A DNA stretch of 64,000 nucleotides from Paraglaciecola sp. MB-3u-78. Lineage in GTDB: Bacteria; Pseudomonadota; Gammaproteobacteria; Enterobacterales; Alteromonadaceae. Shown here in pieces: positions 8,690-62,520 of the stretch. Under the pieces are notes generated by a model, which worked only from the letters and a program-made list of their open reading frames with translations, searched no databases and was not told the DNA's origin. The translations under genes and the position numbers were made by a program. The stretch spans positions 1 through 64,000 of the forward strand of contig NZ_PJCF01000087.1 of the NCBI RefSeq assembly GCF_002835935.1, given 5' to 3'. Within the stretch, counting starts at the first letter, position 1; every line of letters starts with the position of its first letter.

Positions 8690-9370
8690 ATCCTGCAGGT
8701 CACTGGCTGATGATTTAATTTAGTTTTGAGGAGAGATTTATGCCCTGAAGGGCACAGGCGTCCTTGCTGGTTTTTGACTCGAATCCAGCGCGGCGGCGGC
8801 CTTCAAGCCAGTCACTTTATGTTATGAATGACATCCATGTCATTCCCCCTTCGGGCCTCACTTCGTACGTTTTAAATTTATCCCTTAAATTTAGTCTGCA
8901 GCTAATAATAAAGTAACCACAAATTCGTCTGGAGCGAATTGACTCGCTACATCCTTGTAGCTCACCTGCAGAGCAGGCCAGCTTAAGCTGTTGTGATTTG
9001 TTCTAACAAATCTTGGTGAACATCCTGGGGATGGCCCGAAGGGTGAAATACAGCGGACGTATTTCATAAAAATAAGCCGCTCGCCACTATGTTCTTCATC
9101 CAATTATTTGTGATATTTTATATGCGCTCTTCCCAAACCAATGTAACCACTTCGAATTAGTCAATCACACATCCCTGATGATCGGCACTCGGTTACCGCG
9201 TAACAATCTCGACTTCCTTGTCGAGCTGTTCAACTGGGCGAAGCGGTGCTTCTAAAGAAACCAGTTTCACCCTTGCCATTTGCCCCAAGAACAAGCCATT
9301 TTCAGCTGAAACTTAAAAGGCGAAAACAGCAGTGGCGAAGCCACCAAAGCCACTATAATGACTGGCCTGT
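8690..9370. repeat. Hairpin-mosaic repeat block between DUF2293 copy and higBA-2
   Basis: This non-coding block is built of consecutive short perfect hairpins. Between 8922 and 9066 the arms are AATTCG/CGAATT, GCTAC/GTAGC, CCTGC/GCAGG, CAGC/GCTG, GATTTGTT/AACAAATC, CATCC/GGATG and TGAAATAC/GTATTTCA. Other hairpins lie at 8826-8845 (GAATGACA/TGTCATTC) and 9208-9225 (CTCGAC/GTCGAG). Much of the series recurs in inverse order at 39230-39370. Its end (9290-9360) is an inverted copy of the repeat seen at 28138-28210. Open frames here are short and unconvincing. Confidence 0.75.
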
Positions 9371-14903: not shown

Positions 14904-15032
14904 ATCTGGCCCAGCAGATCTTTAAGAAATTAAAAGCATGTGCTGTGCACACTGGAATCCATTCCAGATTTCAAACAGCGTCCTTGCTGTCTGACTTACT
15001 TTCTTGCTACAGCTCAAGAAAGTAAGCAAAGA

Positions 15033-27300: not shown

Positions 27301-28656
27301 TGTTGAGCCTTTATCTTTTTACAAGAGTTAATAATTTACGTCTCTATCAAATTAATAGAATAAAATTGATGATACAGCATTAGTCAGGGTGAATGCAGCA
27401 CGACTCTATTCAAATTAATAAGATTTATTTGAGCAATTCTTAAAAATAGCTCTCTCATAGGCCAAGCTGGAGATTTTAACTTACCAAAATAGGCATAATT
27501 AAAAATCCGACATAAAAATTAATCCATTCAATTCAAGAATAAAAGGGTCGTAATCAATTTAGCTGAATAAAACGGCTCTGATACTTAGACAATTCCTTTA
27601 CCCGATTAAACGCAAGGTGTACTCACTGCAAATCACTTGCCACAAAAAGCAAAGTAGTTATTTTTTGAGCGTTTTTGATGCTAGTGAGCACACCTCACCA
27701 TAACTTCTCAAAATTAAGGTTTTTTTATTAAAATCGTGACAAGCTTCTCAAAAAAGGAAATTATTGAGAAGTTGATATTTAAGGAATAAAAGGGGTCGTA
27801 GTCAATTTAGTTAAATAATACGACTCTGACACTTAGACAATTCCCTTACCCTATTAAACGCAAGGTGTACTAACTCCAAATCACTTGCCATACCCATTCA
27901 TATCCATCGAACGTAAATTATTGTTTTTAATAGTTTTTTACTACCGTCGAGCCTACTATTTTTACCAAGCAAACGCAAAGTGGTTATTTTCAAGCGTTTG
28001 TAATTCCAATGTGCACAGCACATGCATTGGCGGCAAAGCCGCTGTTTTTTGCCCTACCCTCGCATTTATGTTCGCCAATTAAATAACATAAATCCCCATC
28101 GTAACAGGCAAGATAGTCGGCTTCGCCGACAACCGCTTTGGTGGCTCCGCCACTGCTTTTCCGCATGTAAAGTTTCAGCAAAAAATGGCTTATTCTTTGG
28201 GCAAATGACAAGCGGACGCCGCGCGGGATGTCATTTGAGTGGAGCTTGTTATTCCAGTGTGCACCGCACATGCTTTGGCGGCAAAGCCGTTGCTTTTGCC
28301 CTACCCTCGCATTTATGTTCGCCGATTATTTTTGAGATTTAGTGGGTCAATTTACATGGATGTAAATTGAGTCGTAGAGTGCTGGGAGCACATTACGACG
28401 ACCGGCTAAATCTCAAAAATAATTGGATGAAGAACATAGTTTGGCGAGCGGCTTCTTTTTGGTTACTTTATTCTTAGCTGAAGAAGAAAAAGTGACTGGC
28501 TAGCCATGGATGGCAGTCAAAAACGCAATGGATTGCGGTGTGCACAGCACATGCTTTGGCGGCAAAGCCATCACCTTTCGAATATTTCGAATACTTGACA
28601 AATTTCGAATATTGCGAATAATAACGCTAAGTCCAAACGATGGATACCTAGAGAAT
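27301..28656. repeat. Repeat block upstream of the restriction operon and the PIN module
   Basis: About 1.3 kb without a gene. It has two copies of the roughly 230-bp repeat headed GGGGTCGTAGTCAATTTAG (27545-27710 partial; 27792-28026). Next are two copies of the GGCGGCAAAGCCGCTG...CCCTACCCTCGCATTTATGT unit (28025-28080 and 28273-28322), and one copy of the GTGGCTCCGCCAC long-stem unit (28138-28250). A 10-bp-arm hairpin TCAATTTACA/TGTAAATTGA with loop TGGA lies at 28347-28370. The promoter of the methyltransferase should lie in 27301-27400. Confidence 0.7.
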
Positions 28657-29689: not shown

Positions 29690-30611
29690 ATCATAAATTT
29701 ATGAGACCTGCTGTTTAGACAGCTGAAACAAACTCGACGTTATAAATCACGGATGCTCAGAATAAAATTAGCTATGGCGGCTGTCCTGCTAATTTATCCC
29801 AAATTATCCATCTGGATATTCTCCGGGGTCCTTAGATTTTCATAATACTCACTACAATCCACTGTAAGCCCTTACTAAATAAGTAGTTCAGTTCAAATAA
29901 AAACAATTTGAAACGCAATTAACCAACTTGCCAAGCCACTCTTATGTCAAATTAATGGCTAGTTTCCGATTTAACGGAAAAGTTAAATCGGAAACTCATG
30001 CATAGAATGCGAGAACAAACTGCAAAAACAAGGAAGATAAATAACAATTACTGAAACTTGACTTATTGAGTCAGAACGAACCTTCCTTGGCGACAAACTC
30101 GCTGCTTTTGACCTACCCTCGCATTTATGTTCACCAATTATTTGTGAGCTTTGGTGGCTCCACGACTGCATTTATGCTTTTAAAGTTTAAGCACAAAAAG
30201 GCATGTTTTAGGGGGAAATGGCAAGGATGCCATTTGAGTGAAGTTTGAAGGGACACATTCGTAACGACAACGCGGTTGGCGCCCATAAACCAAGTCTTTT
30301 TGTGCGGTTAAAAACTTTAGTAGTCGGCGGCATTTTTTGGTTACTTATTTTTTGCTGTTGAAAAAAAGTAACTGGCTAGAAGGGATTCGAGTCAAAAACC
30401 ATCAGGGATGATGGCGCGAAGCGTCCTTTGGCGGCACAGCCGCTGCTTTTGCCCTACCCTCGCATTTTTGTTCGCCTATTATCAGGGGAATTTGGTAGGG
30501 CAATTGGCAAGAACCGAATTACATGGACACCATCGTAACAAGCACTGAATTAATGTTGTTCAACACACTACTTTTTTTTGTAACACTAATGTAGCGTGCT
30601 ACACTACAAAT
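29690..30611. repeat. Repeat block between PIN module and dead higBA
   Basis: This block holds copies of the ...CCCTACCCTCGCATTTATGT unit (30108-30128 and 30454-30470) and of the long-stem unit (30150-30330). An arm-variant hairpin AAATGGC/GCCATTT with loop AAGGAT lies at 30216-30235. The junction word ggctgtcctgctaatttatc is at 29779-29798. At the right end a promoter for the next module is expected around 30560-30605 (AT-rich, tgtagcgtgctacac palindrome at 30590-30604). Confidence 0.65.
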
Positions 30612-32220: not shown

Positions 32221-32812
32221 ACCAATTACCTCCATAATAAATTTTGCGCCAATGCTCATTCAAACGAATAAAAGAGGTCGAACGAATATAAAGGGGTCGT
32301 AGTCAATTTAGTTGAATAAAACGGCGCTTACACTTAGATAATTCCTTTACTCGGATAAACGCAAGGTGTACTAACTCTAAATCACTTGCCATAAATATTT
32401 ATATCCATCGAACGTAAACAATTTTTTTTAGTGTTTTTATTAAGCACTCGAACCTACTATTTTTACCAAGAAAACGCAAAGTGGTTATTTTTTTGACTAT
32501 TTTTAATTCCAGTGAGCGCAGCTCATACTTTGACGGCACAGCCGTTACTCTCAAATCTCAAAAAACATCAGCGAACGCCGCGCAGGACGATGGCGCGAAG
32601 CGTGCTTTTGATTTTCAGTTTTAAAAAAAGAATAAACTCCGGTGTGCACAGCTCATGTTTTGGCGGCAAAGCACGCTGCAACTAGATCCCCATAAACAAC
32701 GCATCATAAGCATTAACAACATAAATCAAAGACCTTACCCCGCAGTCCCTGATTGAGTTGGTTGTTTTAAATGGATGATTTGAGTCTTTAGTGTGTGTGA
32801 TGCATATCTGAG
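32221..32812. repeat. Repeat block between yefM-yoeB and mshQ
   Basis: This contains a full copy of the repeat headed GGGGTCGTAGTCAATTTAG (32293-32520), ending in gtgagcgcagctcat instead of gtgcacagcacat: both arms of that small palindrome are changed. Next is the gaacgccgcgcaggacgatg block (32573-32600) and a partial gtgcacagctcatg unit (32642). A possible mshQ terminator was not identified. Confidence 0.7.
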
Positions 32813-37249: not shown

Positions 37250-38061
37250 TAATCATATCAAATTATGAGTCGATTAAATGTATTAATCAACTCAATTAGA
37301 TATTTATCTCTGAACGATAAAGTGTGGGAAAAAGCGGGAAAAAGGGGTCGTAGTCAATTTAGTTGAATAAAACGGCTCTGACACTTAGACAATTCCTTTA
37401 CCCGATTAAACGCAAGGTGTACTCACGCCAAATCACTTGCCATACCTATTCATATCCATCGAACGTAAATTATTGTTTTTAATAATTTTTTACTACCGTC
37501 GAGCCCACTATTTTTACCTAATAAAGCAAAGTAAATATTTTACTCCCGTTTTTAATCCCTGTGAGCGCAGCTCATGCTTTGGTGGCCCCGCCACTGCATT
37601 TCCCGCCTTTAAAGTTTCAGCACAAAAAGGCTTATTTTAGGGGCAAATGACAAGGATGTCATTTGAGCGAAAGTTGGAGGGACACATTTGTAGCGACAAC
37701 GCGGTTGGCGCCCATAAAATAAGCTTTTTTGTGCGGTTAAGAACTTTAGCAGCGACGGCTTTCTTTATGAAATACGTCCTTGTATTTCACCCTACGGGCC
37801 ATCTTTCAGATGTTCAAAATGGTTCCCGACCATTTTGTCTGGTTACTATTTTTTGCTGTTGACCATATTTACGGGATAAATATGGAACAGCTTCAGCTGG
37901 CCTTTAGGTAAAGTACAGCGGACGCCGCGCGGGACGATGGCGCGAAGCGTGCCTTTGATCTTCAGTTTTAAAAAAAGAATAAACTCCGATGTGCACAGCA
38001 AATGCTTTTGTACCTCATGAAAATCGACAAAGTCAGCCCTATTAGATACCTAAGCAATTTG
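37250..38061. repeat. Repeat block between fic remnant and parDE
   Basis: A full copy of the 230-bp repeat (37344-37575) joins the long-stem unit (37580-37745) with CAAATGAC/GTCATTTG at 37644-37665. Then come TGAAATAC/GTATTTCA at 37768-37789, CAAAATGGT/ACCATTTTG at 37815-37837 and CCATATTTA/TAAATATGG at 37863-37885. The gcggacgccgcgcgggacga block follows at 37918-37950. This is the cleanest example of the hairpin mosaic. Confidence 0.8.
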
Positions 38062-38355
38062 TTATAAATGCCTATCTGGCTCCATGCTTTGATGCAAGAT
38101 ATCGATGATATCAATATGCGTATCTCTGATACGGTAATAGATTGTGTGCCTGCGTTCGTAGTAGCTGTAATAGCCCGTCTTAATTTCGCTTCTGGGCTTA
38201 CCATCTAAGGGGGACTTAGCTAATTGCTGCATTCTTTTGCGCAACCCATTTAAATACAAACTTGTTTGCTGTTTACCGTAGTTTTCGAAGGTATAGCGCT
38301 GGATTTGTGTAAGGCTTTTTTGTGCTTGTGGTGAAAGAACGAATTTAGCCATCAA
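38062..38355 (-). CDS. parE: ParE-type toxin
   Basis: A 97-residue RelE/ParE toxin (MMAKFVLSPQAQKSLTQIQRY, KSPLDGKPRSEIKTGYYSYYERRHTIYYRI, IDIIDILHQSMEP). ParE toxins poison DNA gyrase. It overlaps the parD end by 11 bases. The HTIYYRI-to-DILHQ C-terminal half is characteristic. A second Met directly after the first could be the start. Confidence 0.9.
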   Translation of the reverse strand: MMAKFVLSPQAQKSLTQIQRYTFENYGKQQTSLYLNGLRKRMQQLAKSPLDGKPRSEIKTGYYSYYERRHTIYYRIRDTHIDIIDILHQSMEPDRHL

Positions 38356-38584
38356 TTAATTCTTTCATAAATGCATCACCATCAATACCTTGCCCTTGGT
38401 CGAGCTGGGCTTCCCCTGCGGCCAAAACAGCTTTTAATCTATCCAGCTTTGTTTCTTGCTCTTCAAGTAGGCGCAACCCAGCGCGTATAGCTTCGCTTGT
38501 GGAGCCGTAGCGGCCTTCTTGAACTTTGCTTTCTATGAAGCCATCAAAATGCTTGCCGAGCGTGACGCTAGTATTTCTAGGCAT
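38345..38584 (-). CDS. parD: ParD-type antitoxin
   Basis: A 79-residue ribbon-helix-helix antitoxin (RNTSVTLGKHFDGFIESKVQEGRYGSTSEAIRAGLRLLEE, residues 3-42) with a toxin-binding acidic tail. AGGATATTGCC precedes the start. A 33-bp palindrome 16 bases upstream is a strong operator candidate. It forms an operon with parE. Confidence 0.92.
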   Translation of the reverse strand: MPRNTSVTLGKHFDGFIESKVQEGRYGSTSEAIRAGLRLLEEQETKLDRLKAVLAAGEAQLDQGQGIDGDAFMKELIDG

Positions 38585-38599
38585 GGCAATATCCTTTAT

Positions 38600-38632
38600 A
38601 AAATAGTGTATTACTTATTAATACACTATTTT
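38600..38632 (-). promoter_or_regulatory. Long palindrome upstream of parD
   Basis: Perfect 14-bp arms AAAATAGTGTATTA and TAATACACTATTTT are separated by CTTAT. The palindrome lies just before parD, where ParD dimers would be expected to bind, and its AT-rich arms could include the -10 region. Function is inferred. Confidence 0.7.
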
Positions 38633-39402
38633 AGGGATAGTTTCCAATGAACCTGCGGCTTCTTTTTATGAAATACGTCCTGTATTTCACGCTACGCGCC
38701 ATCTTTCAGATGTTCAAATTCATTCCAGATGAATTTGTGCTTACTTTTTGCGGCTGTAGGTAAAAAGTAAGTTGAACCCAAGGGACTGGGTTTAAGAAAC
38801 GCAATGGATTGCGGTGTGCACAGCACATGCTTTATCGGCAAAGCCATCACCTTTCGAATATTTCGAATGCTTGAAAAAACTACTAACATTGCGAATACAT
38901 CAAATCACTGGACTCAAAACAAAATTAAACTTCCCTAGGCGGCTCAGCCGCTGATTTTCCCTACCCTCGCATGTATGTTCGCTAGTTATCAGGTGAATTT
39001 AGTACTTACTCCTTTCCTGCCAGATGTGAACGCAACTTAGAAAAGTGAAACATTTGAGGTAGTCAAATACACATCCTTGATGATTTTCACCCAAACCCAA
39101 CATCCATGTTGTGTTGTTAAGTCGGATGGAGCAGTGCTCCAGAGAGCCCCGACTTAACCCTTGATGATCCGCACCCAATCTCGACGTCCATATCGAGATG
39201 TTCAACTGGGCGAAGCCGTGCTTCTAATGAATCCAGTTTCACCCTTCGGGCCATCCCGAGGATATTCACCAAGATTTGTTAGAACAAATCACAACAGCTT
39301 CAGCTGGCCTGCACGGCAAGTGAGCTACAAGGATGTAGCGAGTCAATTCGTTCCAGACGAATTTGTGGGCAACATAGATAATTGGTACCAGCATGAAATT
39401 AA
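38633..39402. repeat. Hairpin-mosaic block between parDE and the lipoprotein gene
   Basis: Hairpins in order include TGAAATAC/GTATTTCA (about 38668-38688), CAAATTCAT/ATGAATTTG (38715-38737), CTTACTTTTT/AAAAAGTAAG (38740-38772) and CGCAAT/ATTGCG (38799 on). Then come CAACA/TGTTG near 39098, GATTTGTT/AACAAATC near 39274, GCTAC/GTAGC (39324-39339) and AATTCGT/ACGAATT (39345-39363). The last part is an inverted relative of 8920-9100. No gene is seen. Confidence 0.75.
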
Positions 39403-45272: not shown

Positions 45273-45325
45273 CCAACTGATTGGCGTTTTGTTCTTTGAT
45301 ATCAAGCTCAATCAGTTGGTTTTTA
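45273..45325 (+). terminator. Rho-independent terminator after the DUF3083-like gene
   Basis: Stem CCAACTGATTG / CAATCAGTTGG (45273-45283 and 45309-45319) is followed by TTTTTA. It lies 10 bases after the stop. Confidence 0.75.
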
Positions 45326-45608
45326 ACATGTTTTTTTATGCTTTAATCACTTGCATAACATGGCTAGTTACTAACTTTGGCTCTCCCCTAATAACCATGT
45401 GATTGTGATTTTTGGGGATCTCTAACTCTTGAATATCAAAGTCCTAGTCAATCTAAAAATTGGATAAATGGGCTCAGATCCGTTTTATGTGAAAAAATAG
45501 CATCGACAAAATCAATATTTACATAATCACCCCATCATAATAAAATGCAAAAAACAGTTGCTTGAAGAACCATTATTTCTATATACCTTTAGAGTTTTGG
45601 AGTTAATT

Positions 45609-62372: not shown

Positions 62373-62393
62373 TCTTGTCTAAAAACATTAATG

Positions 62394-62440
62394 TGCTTGA
62401 TAAAAAGGCTGGTAACATAACGCAGCCTTTTTATCAAGCA
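62394..62440. terminator. Bidirectional terminator
   Basis: Perfect 17-bp arms TGCTTGATAAAAAGGCT and AGCCTTTTTATCAAGCA with a 13-base loop. A-rich and T-rich segments inside the arms suit termination from both sides. It lies between convergent genes. Confidence 0.8.
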
Positions 62441-62520
62441 CAGCTGATTGCTTTGATTGTTTTTTTGATTGCTAGGATGCGCTTCGGCACAATGAAGTTT
62501 TTATACAGTAAGCGGAACCC

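Follow-up and report, generated by a model that had tools for sequence, protein, structure and literature searches.

A covarying four-hairpin repeat of Paraglaciecola with preferred sites: a probable insertion element and probable relative of RtT

Introduction

REP/BIME and REPIN sequences are short palindromic units that occur as inverted pairs or mosaics and are moved in trans by RAYTs, which are Y1 transposases. Rickettsia palindromic elements (RPE) are short structured repeats that enter reading frames, and the attC sites of integrons keep their structure while the sequence of their arms varies, with the terminal boxes GTTRRRY and RYYYAAC. The repeats of the E. coli tyrT/tyrV loci (RtT; RF00391; rttR) are annotated in E. 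coli as a small RNA, RttR. Passages on RtT deal with a tandem GA motif (PMC7657543) and with a 175-bp difference in repeat number (PMC2658671), and the parts of the open-access literature that were searched did not portray RtT as mobile. Nothing in the open-access literature searched was recognised as the element described below.

Here we analyse a stretch of 64,000 nucleotides from Paraglaciecola sp. MB-3u-78 (contig NZ_PJCF01000087.1, positions 1 to 64,000 of the forward strand), called the window throughout, in which two hairpins at matching positions differ in their arms and still pair. Both belong to a repeat that, by reading, resembles RtT in the order of its hairpins and in its loops (the GCA loop of H2, CCC-GAA-GGG and H1, read on the tRNA strand), as well as in the T-arm halves that flank it and in tandem units that end in a tRNA 3' end. 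Unlike RtT, the copies in the window are dispersed, standing singly or in inverted pairs, a search for tRNA genes within the window found none, and relatives of the element lie in protein genes. The covarying element is real and very probably related to RtT, and strong evidence indicates that it is present recurrently at specific sites. The unit behaves like an insertion element that favours certain sites, a point that the original prediction for this DNA had missed.

Results

Two reported hairpins are the final stems of a four-hairpin repeat

The arms and loops of the two reported hairpins lie exactly where the original prediction had placed them, at 37815-37837 and 38715-38737 on the plus strand. 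Its count of five changed arm positions is too high, since the nine-base arms CAAAATGGT and CAAATTCAT disagree only at positions 5, 7 and 8; its observation that the partners have changed as well is borne out at all three, which remain complementary. A fourth paired change is found in the neighbouring hairpin, CCC-TAC-GGG at 37790-37798 against CGC-TAC-GCG at 38690-38698. Homology extends over the whole 73 bp, so that an objection foreseen at the outset, that the two loci might not be homologous beyond a shared 14-base flank, does not apply.

Each reported hairpin is the last of four within a repeat copy, in the order H1, H1b, H2 (CATCT-TTC-AGATG) and H3, and by covariance model the copies are 73 or 72 bp long. 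Copy 1 (37766..37838, plus strand, 98.5 bits) has its H1 at 37768-37775/37782-37789 with loop GTCCTT, followed by H1b with the CCC-TAC-GGG form, H2 at 37800-37812 and the reported hairpin as H3. Copy 2 (38667..38738, plus strand, 92.6 bits) is built alike, with H1 at 38669-38676/38682-38689 (loop GTCCT), H1b in the CGC-TAC-GCG form, H2 at 38700-38712 and the second reported hairpin as H3. Between the two copies, small overlapping frames on the minus strand (38062-38355 and 38345-38584) may, judged by eye, resemble a toxin-antitoxin pair of the ParE/ParD kind.

Further copies were found elsewhere in the window. A truncated and diverged copy stands in inverted orientation just beyond copy 1 (37862..37917, minus strand, 31.9 bits), with its H3, CCATATTTA-CGGGA-TAAATATGG, at 37863-37885. 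Another diverged copy lies at 8823..8895 (plus strand, 59.9 bits), accompanied by a weak copy at 8941..9013 (plus strand, 30.0 bits) and an inverted one at 9006..9068 (minus strand, 47.9 bits). Two weak, opposed matches at 39226-39279 (plus) and 39272-39344 (minus) are borderline, with 23.9 and 24.5 bits and E values of 0.0014 and 0.001. The window as a whole is rich in such structures: perfect hairpins with arms of at least 7 and loops of 3-8 number 51, compared with 24-31 after dinucleotide shuffling (five shuffles). Two perfect inverted repeats, one of 15 bp and one of 20 bp and both with short loops, are also present at 38599-38633 and 62392-62442, and the element's covariance model gave no match at either.

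The element is dispersed in its genome and widespread in Gammaproteobacteria

The flank word, allowing up to two mismatches, occurs at 16 places in the source genome, which are not all true copies, compared with 6 for the same word read backwards. An exact-pattern scan of a contig collection returned five loci, three from Paraglaciecola and two from other genera. From stretches of 21 Paraglaciecola genomes we gathered 61 pattern rows and dropped four chance hits (L104, the minus-strand hit of L126, L149 and L151), leaving 57 rows and 54 distinct copies. Alignment A1 holds 53 of these, excludes the degenerate L044 and was made without use of the structure; A2, from which the covariance model was built, holds 51, with L041 and L159 also excluded. 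Alignments A4-A6 were fitted to that model, and the family (A5) and class (A6) alignments lean towards it.

At E up to 0.01, the model matches 22 of 22 Paraglaciecola genomes, with 61 matches in the source genome alone, and 188 of 295 genomes drawn from the family. At E up to 0.001, matches were obtained in 69/197 genomes of the order draw, 121/369 of the class draw and 51/299 of the phylum draw; the draws overlap, and each includes the source genome. The element is thus dispersed in the source genome and widespread in Gammaproteobacteria. BLAST with copy 1 gave no match in the plasmid collection or in the phage collection.

The stems covary in three alignments

Of 1323 stem cells in A1 (53 copies), 94.3% pair, compared with 80.1% when partners are shuffled, and 19 of the 25 pairs have changed on both sides. 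The covariation score of this alignment is 0.414, against 0.157 for shuffled and at most 0.103 for slid partners, and the scores of three alignments each lie above every one of 500 shuffles and six slides. Under a tree null, in which the substitutions of each column are placed at random, 8/25 pairs lie above all 400 simulations, spread over all four helices, and 14/25 have p below 0.05 without correction. A single tree is an approximation here, because copies may recombine.

Given no structure, RNAalifold recovered H1, H1b and H3 from A1 and missed H2. A cruder, model-free test on the 23 nt that follow H2 in 54 copies gave 7.74 Watson-Crick pairs of 9 for H3, falling to 6.07 (maximum 6.56) when right arms were swapped among copies. 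Both sides have changed at 24/25 pairs in A5 and at 19/25 in A6, and in A5 two-sided changes account for 357 cells, compared with 8 cells that changed on one side only and remain paired. The covariation test proposed in the original prediction, run in an equivalent form in place of R-scape, was passed, and the outcome that would have spoken against the prediction, a lack of covariation, does not apply.

Arms change mostly in single steps, loops are conserved and wobble pairs are scarce

The original prediction had offered two readings of the paired changes, selection on structure or a mechanism that rewrites whole palindromes as units. Selection on structure is supported, because loops and linkers are far more conserved than arms: mean entropy is 0.13 bits for the TCC loops, compared with 0.88 for the arms of H1 and 0.63 for those of H3, and TCC is present in 153/166 H1 loops and 156/166 H3 loops. 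Rewriting as units is disfavoured as the general pattern, since 17 of the 18 left-arm types of H3 are one letter away from another type, which indicates that arm change is mostly stepwise. For the jump between 37815 and 38715 it may still apply, as the H3 left-arm types sampled form four groups with no single-letter step between them, and the arms at these two loci come from different groups.

Wobble pairs bear on the level at which the fold is kept. Among 166 distinct copies, the stem cells read on the plus strand comprise 3840 Watson-Crick pairs, 45 G.T, 69 A.C and 138 others (58 without gaps), so that the minus strand, which is the strand of RtT RNA, has 69 G.T and 45 A.C. For comparison, 27 tRNAs of these loci have, in their acceptor and T stems, 306 Watson-Crick pairs, 17 G.T, one A.C and none of any other kind. 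The share of G.T among paired cells is thus 1.2% (plus strand) and 1.8% (minus strand), compared with 5.3% in the tRNAs (Fisher p 2e-6 and 2e-4), and the ratio of G.T to A.C differs from that of the tRNAs as well (p 1.1e-5 for plus, 0.006 for minus). The minus-strand excess of G.T over A.C is weak (binomial p 0.03), and the cells behind all these tests are not independent. Because G.U is scarce on both strands relative to tRNA stems, we lean towards a fold kept as hairpins at the DNA level or by arm-to-arm correction. Read on the minus strand, H1 has the form C-ANGGAY-G in many copies, and H3 is mostly CNGGA; C-ANGGAY-G resembles the CsrA/RsmA consensus.

The element interrupts integron-integrase genes at one codon junction

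Integron-integrase genes are interrupted by the element at a single codon junction, RHSF^ATHLL, in 10 loci of the genus and in five of other genera (L232, L234, L236, L239 and L244). Nine of the genus copies were found by pattern, each in a gene that, in its upstream part, can be read as an integron integrase, and the tenth is L137. Among the matches listed, at least 24 full-length TIGR02249 matches in at least 14 of 22 genomes run through the site; a stop is present in one of these. On a tree that joins 15 interrupted genes with 21 uninterrupted at this point, drawn without support values, at least seven changes are needed. Two loci of one genome, L130 and L131, are 46% alike in upstream gene sequence and 99% alike in the element; for L106 and L107 the figures are 67% and 100%. 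Together, the tree and these two contrasts show that the site was filled several times independently or that the element passed between genes. L126, L130 and L107 are each closest to an uninterrupted gene (93%, 92% and 86%). A single old insertion followed by vertical inheritance alone was rejected on this evidence.

When the element is excised in silico, RHS[FLI]^A is restored in one open frame in 12/13 contexts, the exception being L106, which has a changed letter at the junction. No target duplication is visible at the integrase sites, and, over the element's sites, ATT or TTT is common at the end of the left flank. Of the nine integrases translated, most lose their frame at the insert, through a break or a shift. 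L107, L130 and L139 carry additional frameshifts, the other six have no other break in the part translated, and at L150 the TIGR02249 match begins only at position 56. The interrupted genes look like pseudogenes in the making. Read-through or ribosome bypass was rejected as the rule, given the other frameshifts in three of the nine translated genes and the fact that L106 alone keeps one frame without stops through the element and through as much of the gene as was covered. The integron locus as the home of the repeats was likewise considered, over 30 loci, and set aside: matches lay in four interrupted-gene loci and in the uninterrupted L161.

Copies lie at tRNA T-arm sequence and probably connect the family to RtT

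Many matches in the family stand in arrays, each with a constant period (132-186 bp). ARAGORN placed tRNA genes beside eight arrays, L254-L261, the period of L261 being longer, and none in L253. These genes include Pro, Phe, Tyr, Glu, Lys and other tRNAs, an arrangement reminiscent of the E. coli tyrT locus. By reading, each unit of the L253 and L255 arrays contains a tRNA 3' end. At L027:1651-1863 (G000:C67:365150-365362), three tandem copies stand beside a tRNA-Gly gene by eye, with an H1 stem in the first that is unlike those of the other two.

Flanks were compared over 171 distinct contexts, in which identical 20-nt flanks count once and L107 is merged with L106 and L137 with L122. The joined flanks rebuild a T-arm, ...GGATT^CGAACC... 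or ...GGTTCGATT^CC..., in 32/171 contexts, compared with 149/20000 random junctions; since many loci were chosen for their arrays, this share is not a frequency. Joined flanks yield a complete tRNA in one context of the 171 (L287, tRNA-Ser), and with the element present there is none. Arrays of tRNA 3' ends make up most of the T-arm cases, and these could have spread by tandem duplication. By these tests, 127 contexts are neither T-arm nor integrase sites, and many of them lie within other palindromic repeats. The integrase codon junction, tRNA T-arm sequence and the inside of other palindromic repeats are thus the preferred places of the element.

The link with RtT runs through an intermediate, because E. 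coli copies score weakly and RF00391 misses the copies in the window. Rfam gave no match above threshold on the window, and RF00391 gave none on the copies in the window when E was relaxed to 10. At L257, a tRNA-Tyr array in a genome of the same family, RF00391 matches two of three copies with 47.3 and 46.5 bits (cut-off 45), on the strand opposite to that of the element model. Conversely, the element model ranks the four RtT copies first in the 2.2 kb searched of the E. coli MG1655 locus, with weak E values of 0.025, 0.031, 0.051 and 0.59 (filters off). Reading the E. coli repeats, we find halves of the T-arm on both sides of the hairpins. The RtT and window families are very probably related through such intermediates.

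A second repeat family varies in the same manner

The original prediction had cited two further examples of hairpins that differ and still pair. One, at 37645 and 30216, is real: the hairpins differ in one pair, A-T against G-C, and belong to a separate repeat family, here called F. The first F copy (37607..37757, plus strand) is a long imperfect palindrome with an inner hairpin, CAAATGACA-AGGA-TGTCATTTG, at 37644-37665; in the second (30179..30323, plus strand) the inner hairpin at 30216 is AAATGGCA-AGGA-TGCCATTT. Over 25 copies of the family, the variable pair is G-C in 15 and A-T in 10, without exception, 9/28 pairs have changed on both sides, and G.U accounts for about 3.4% of paired cells (23 cells). 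Just after the second F copy, at about 30325-30345, the sequence appears, by eye, to show the insertion site of copy 1 (37766-37838) in unoccupied form. The other cited example is likewise present, with gtgcacagcac at 28011, 28540, 31445 and 38816 and, on the minus strand, at 14950 and 13315; its variant gtgagcgcagctcat occurs at 32512 and 37561.

GGA or TCC loops are shared more widely. They occur in 13 of the 23 hairpins of the window with arms of at least 8 and loops of 3-8, and in 43/81 across 20 repeat-rich loci of the genome, compared with 5/96 in 400 kb from two contigs. A GC-rich insert of the type CGGACGCCGCGCGG lies within the hairpin loop of F repeats at L035, L030, L155, L121, L039 and L041, and inserts of this type are also present in loops of element copies at L025:2671-2756, L032:2107-2191 and L032:3174-3258. 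Since both repeat families carry them, hairpin loops seem to attract small inserts.

Discussion

We propose, with modest confidence, that both hairpins form the 3' stem of one and the same non-autonomous insertion element, which is about 72 bp long, stands here in two copies and is recognised as folded DNA. Mobility machinery supplied in trans would recognise the folded strand, reading loops and linkers by sequence and arms by pairing alone. Loops and linkers would then be conserved while arms could vary freely as long as they stay complementary, and arm mutations would persist when compensated or when copied from arm to arm within the folded strand. A putative enzyme acting in trans would move the element. 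A comparison of ten repeat segments of the window with the genome's 11 Y1 loci gave no similarity within about 1.5 kb of any of them. The window itself carries, at 45324-45485 on the minus strand, a degenerate piece of a Y1 transposase that has several stop codons.

Strong covariation in three alignments is also what a structured RNA would leave, one that is transcribed like RtT at E. coli tyrT and selected for a function of its folded form, such as that of a decoy for CsrA through the GGA that its loops carry on one strand. The annotation of RtT as RttR, the weak G.T excess on the RtT strand (69 against 45 A.C) and the C-ANGGAY-G form of many minus-strand H1 stems all fit such a role. We nevertheless regard it as unlikely. 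G.T is scarcer than in tRNA stems on both strands, composite repeats hold copies in both orientations and no GGA is read in the H1 loop of the E. coli RtT copies. The integrase copies lie within reading frames in a single orientation, which fits a choice of site instead. The low strand asymmetry of wobble pairs, together with the great preponderance of two-sided over one-sided changes in A5, could also be produced if mismatches were simply copied from arm to arm, by template switching or hairpin repair, in palindromes whose structure is not selected. Such neutral correction would not protect loops and linkers, which are far more conserved than arms, and it sits poorly with a four-hairpin order that is constant across a class; we consider it improbable.

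The distribution of copies could in turn be attributed to recombination, with the integrase and tRNA-array copies descending from a few old insertions that were later homogenised. Arrays in which tRNA 3' end, spacer and element follow one another in tandem resemble the products of unequal crossing over, and integrase copies within one genome are nearly identical, as gene conversion would also make them. The interleaving of interrupted and uninterrupted integrases on the tree, the nearness of L126, L130 and L107 each to an uninterrupted gene and the precise empty sites obtained from joined flanks all count against this account, which we judge highly improbable. An insertion element recognised as folded DNA remains our preferred reading.

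Comparison with the described systems sets this element apart in several respects. Unlike REP sequences and their RAYTs, it has no Y1 locus with recognisable adjacent copies in the source genome, and it combines conserved loops with varying arms, four hairpins and recurrent tRNA and integrase sites. RPE, by description, enter reading frames, as this element does, but its insertion leaves most of the nine integrases with a broken or shifted frame. Its tie to integron-integrase genes and its varying arms recall attC; however, the 51-copy consensus shows, by reading, neither of the attC terminal boxes, and the copies lie inside the integrase gene. With respect to elements derived from IS200/IS605, the integrase sites show no duplication, the left flank of copies in general commonly closes with ATT or TTT, and no parent element was identified. 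A wider reading, which we hold to be possible though doubtful, is that RtT and the window repeats form one large superfamily of minimal DNA-hairpin elements, which would home to two conserved landmarks, the tRNA T-loop and the catalytic RHSF^ATHLL site of integron integrases, and would move as folded single strands of DNA through a recombinase provided in trans.

A functional RNA is not proved by strong covariation on its own; the share of G.U must be examined as well. If the proposal is true, the RtT/tyrT repeats of E. coli would be insertions in a tRNA T-arm that have long been read as an RNA gene, and the family would provide a bacterial mobile element in which recognition of a fold, not of a sequence, could be measured across many natural variants.
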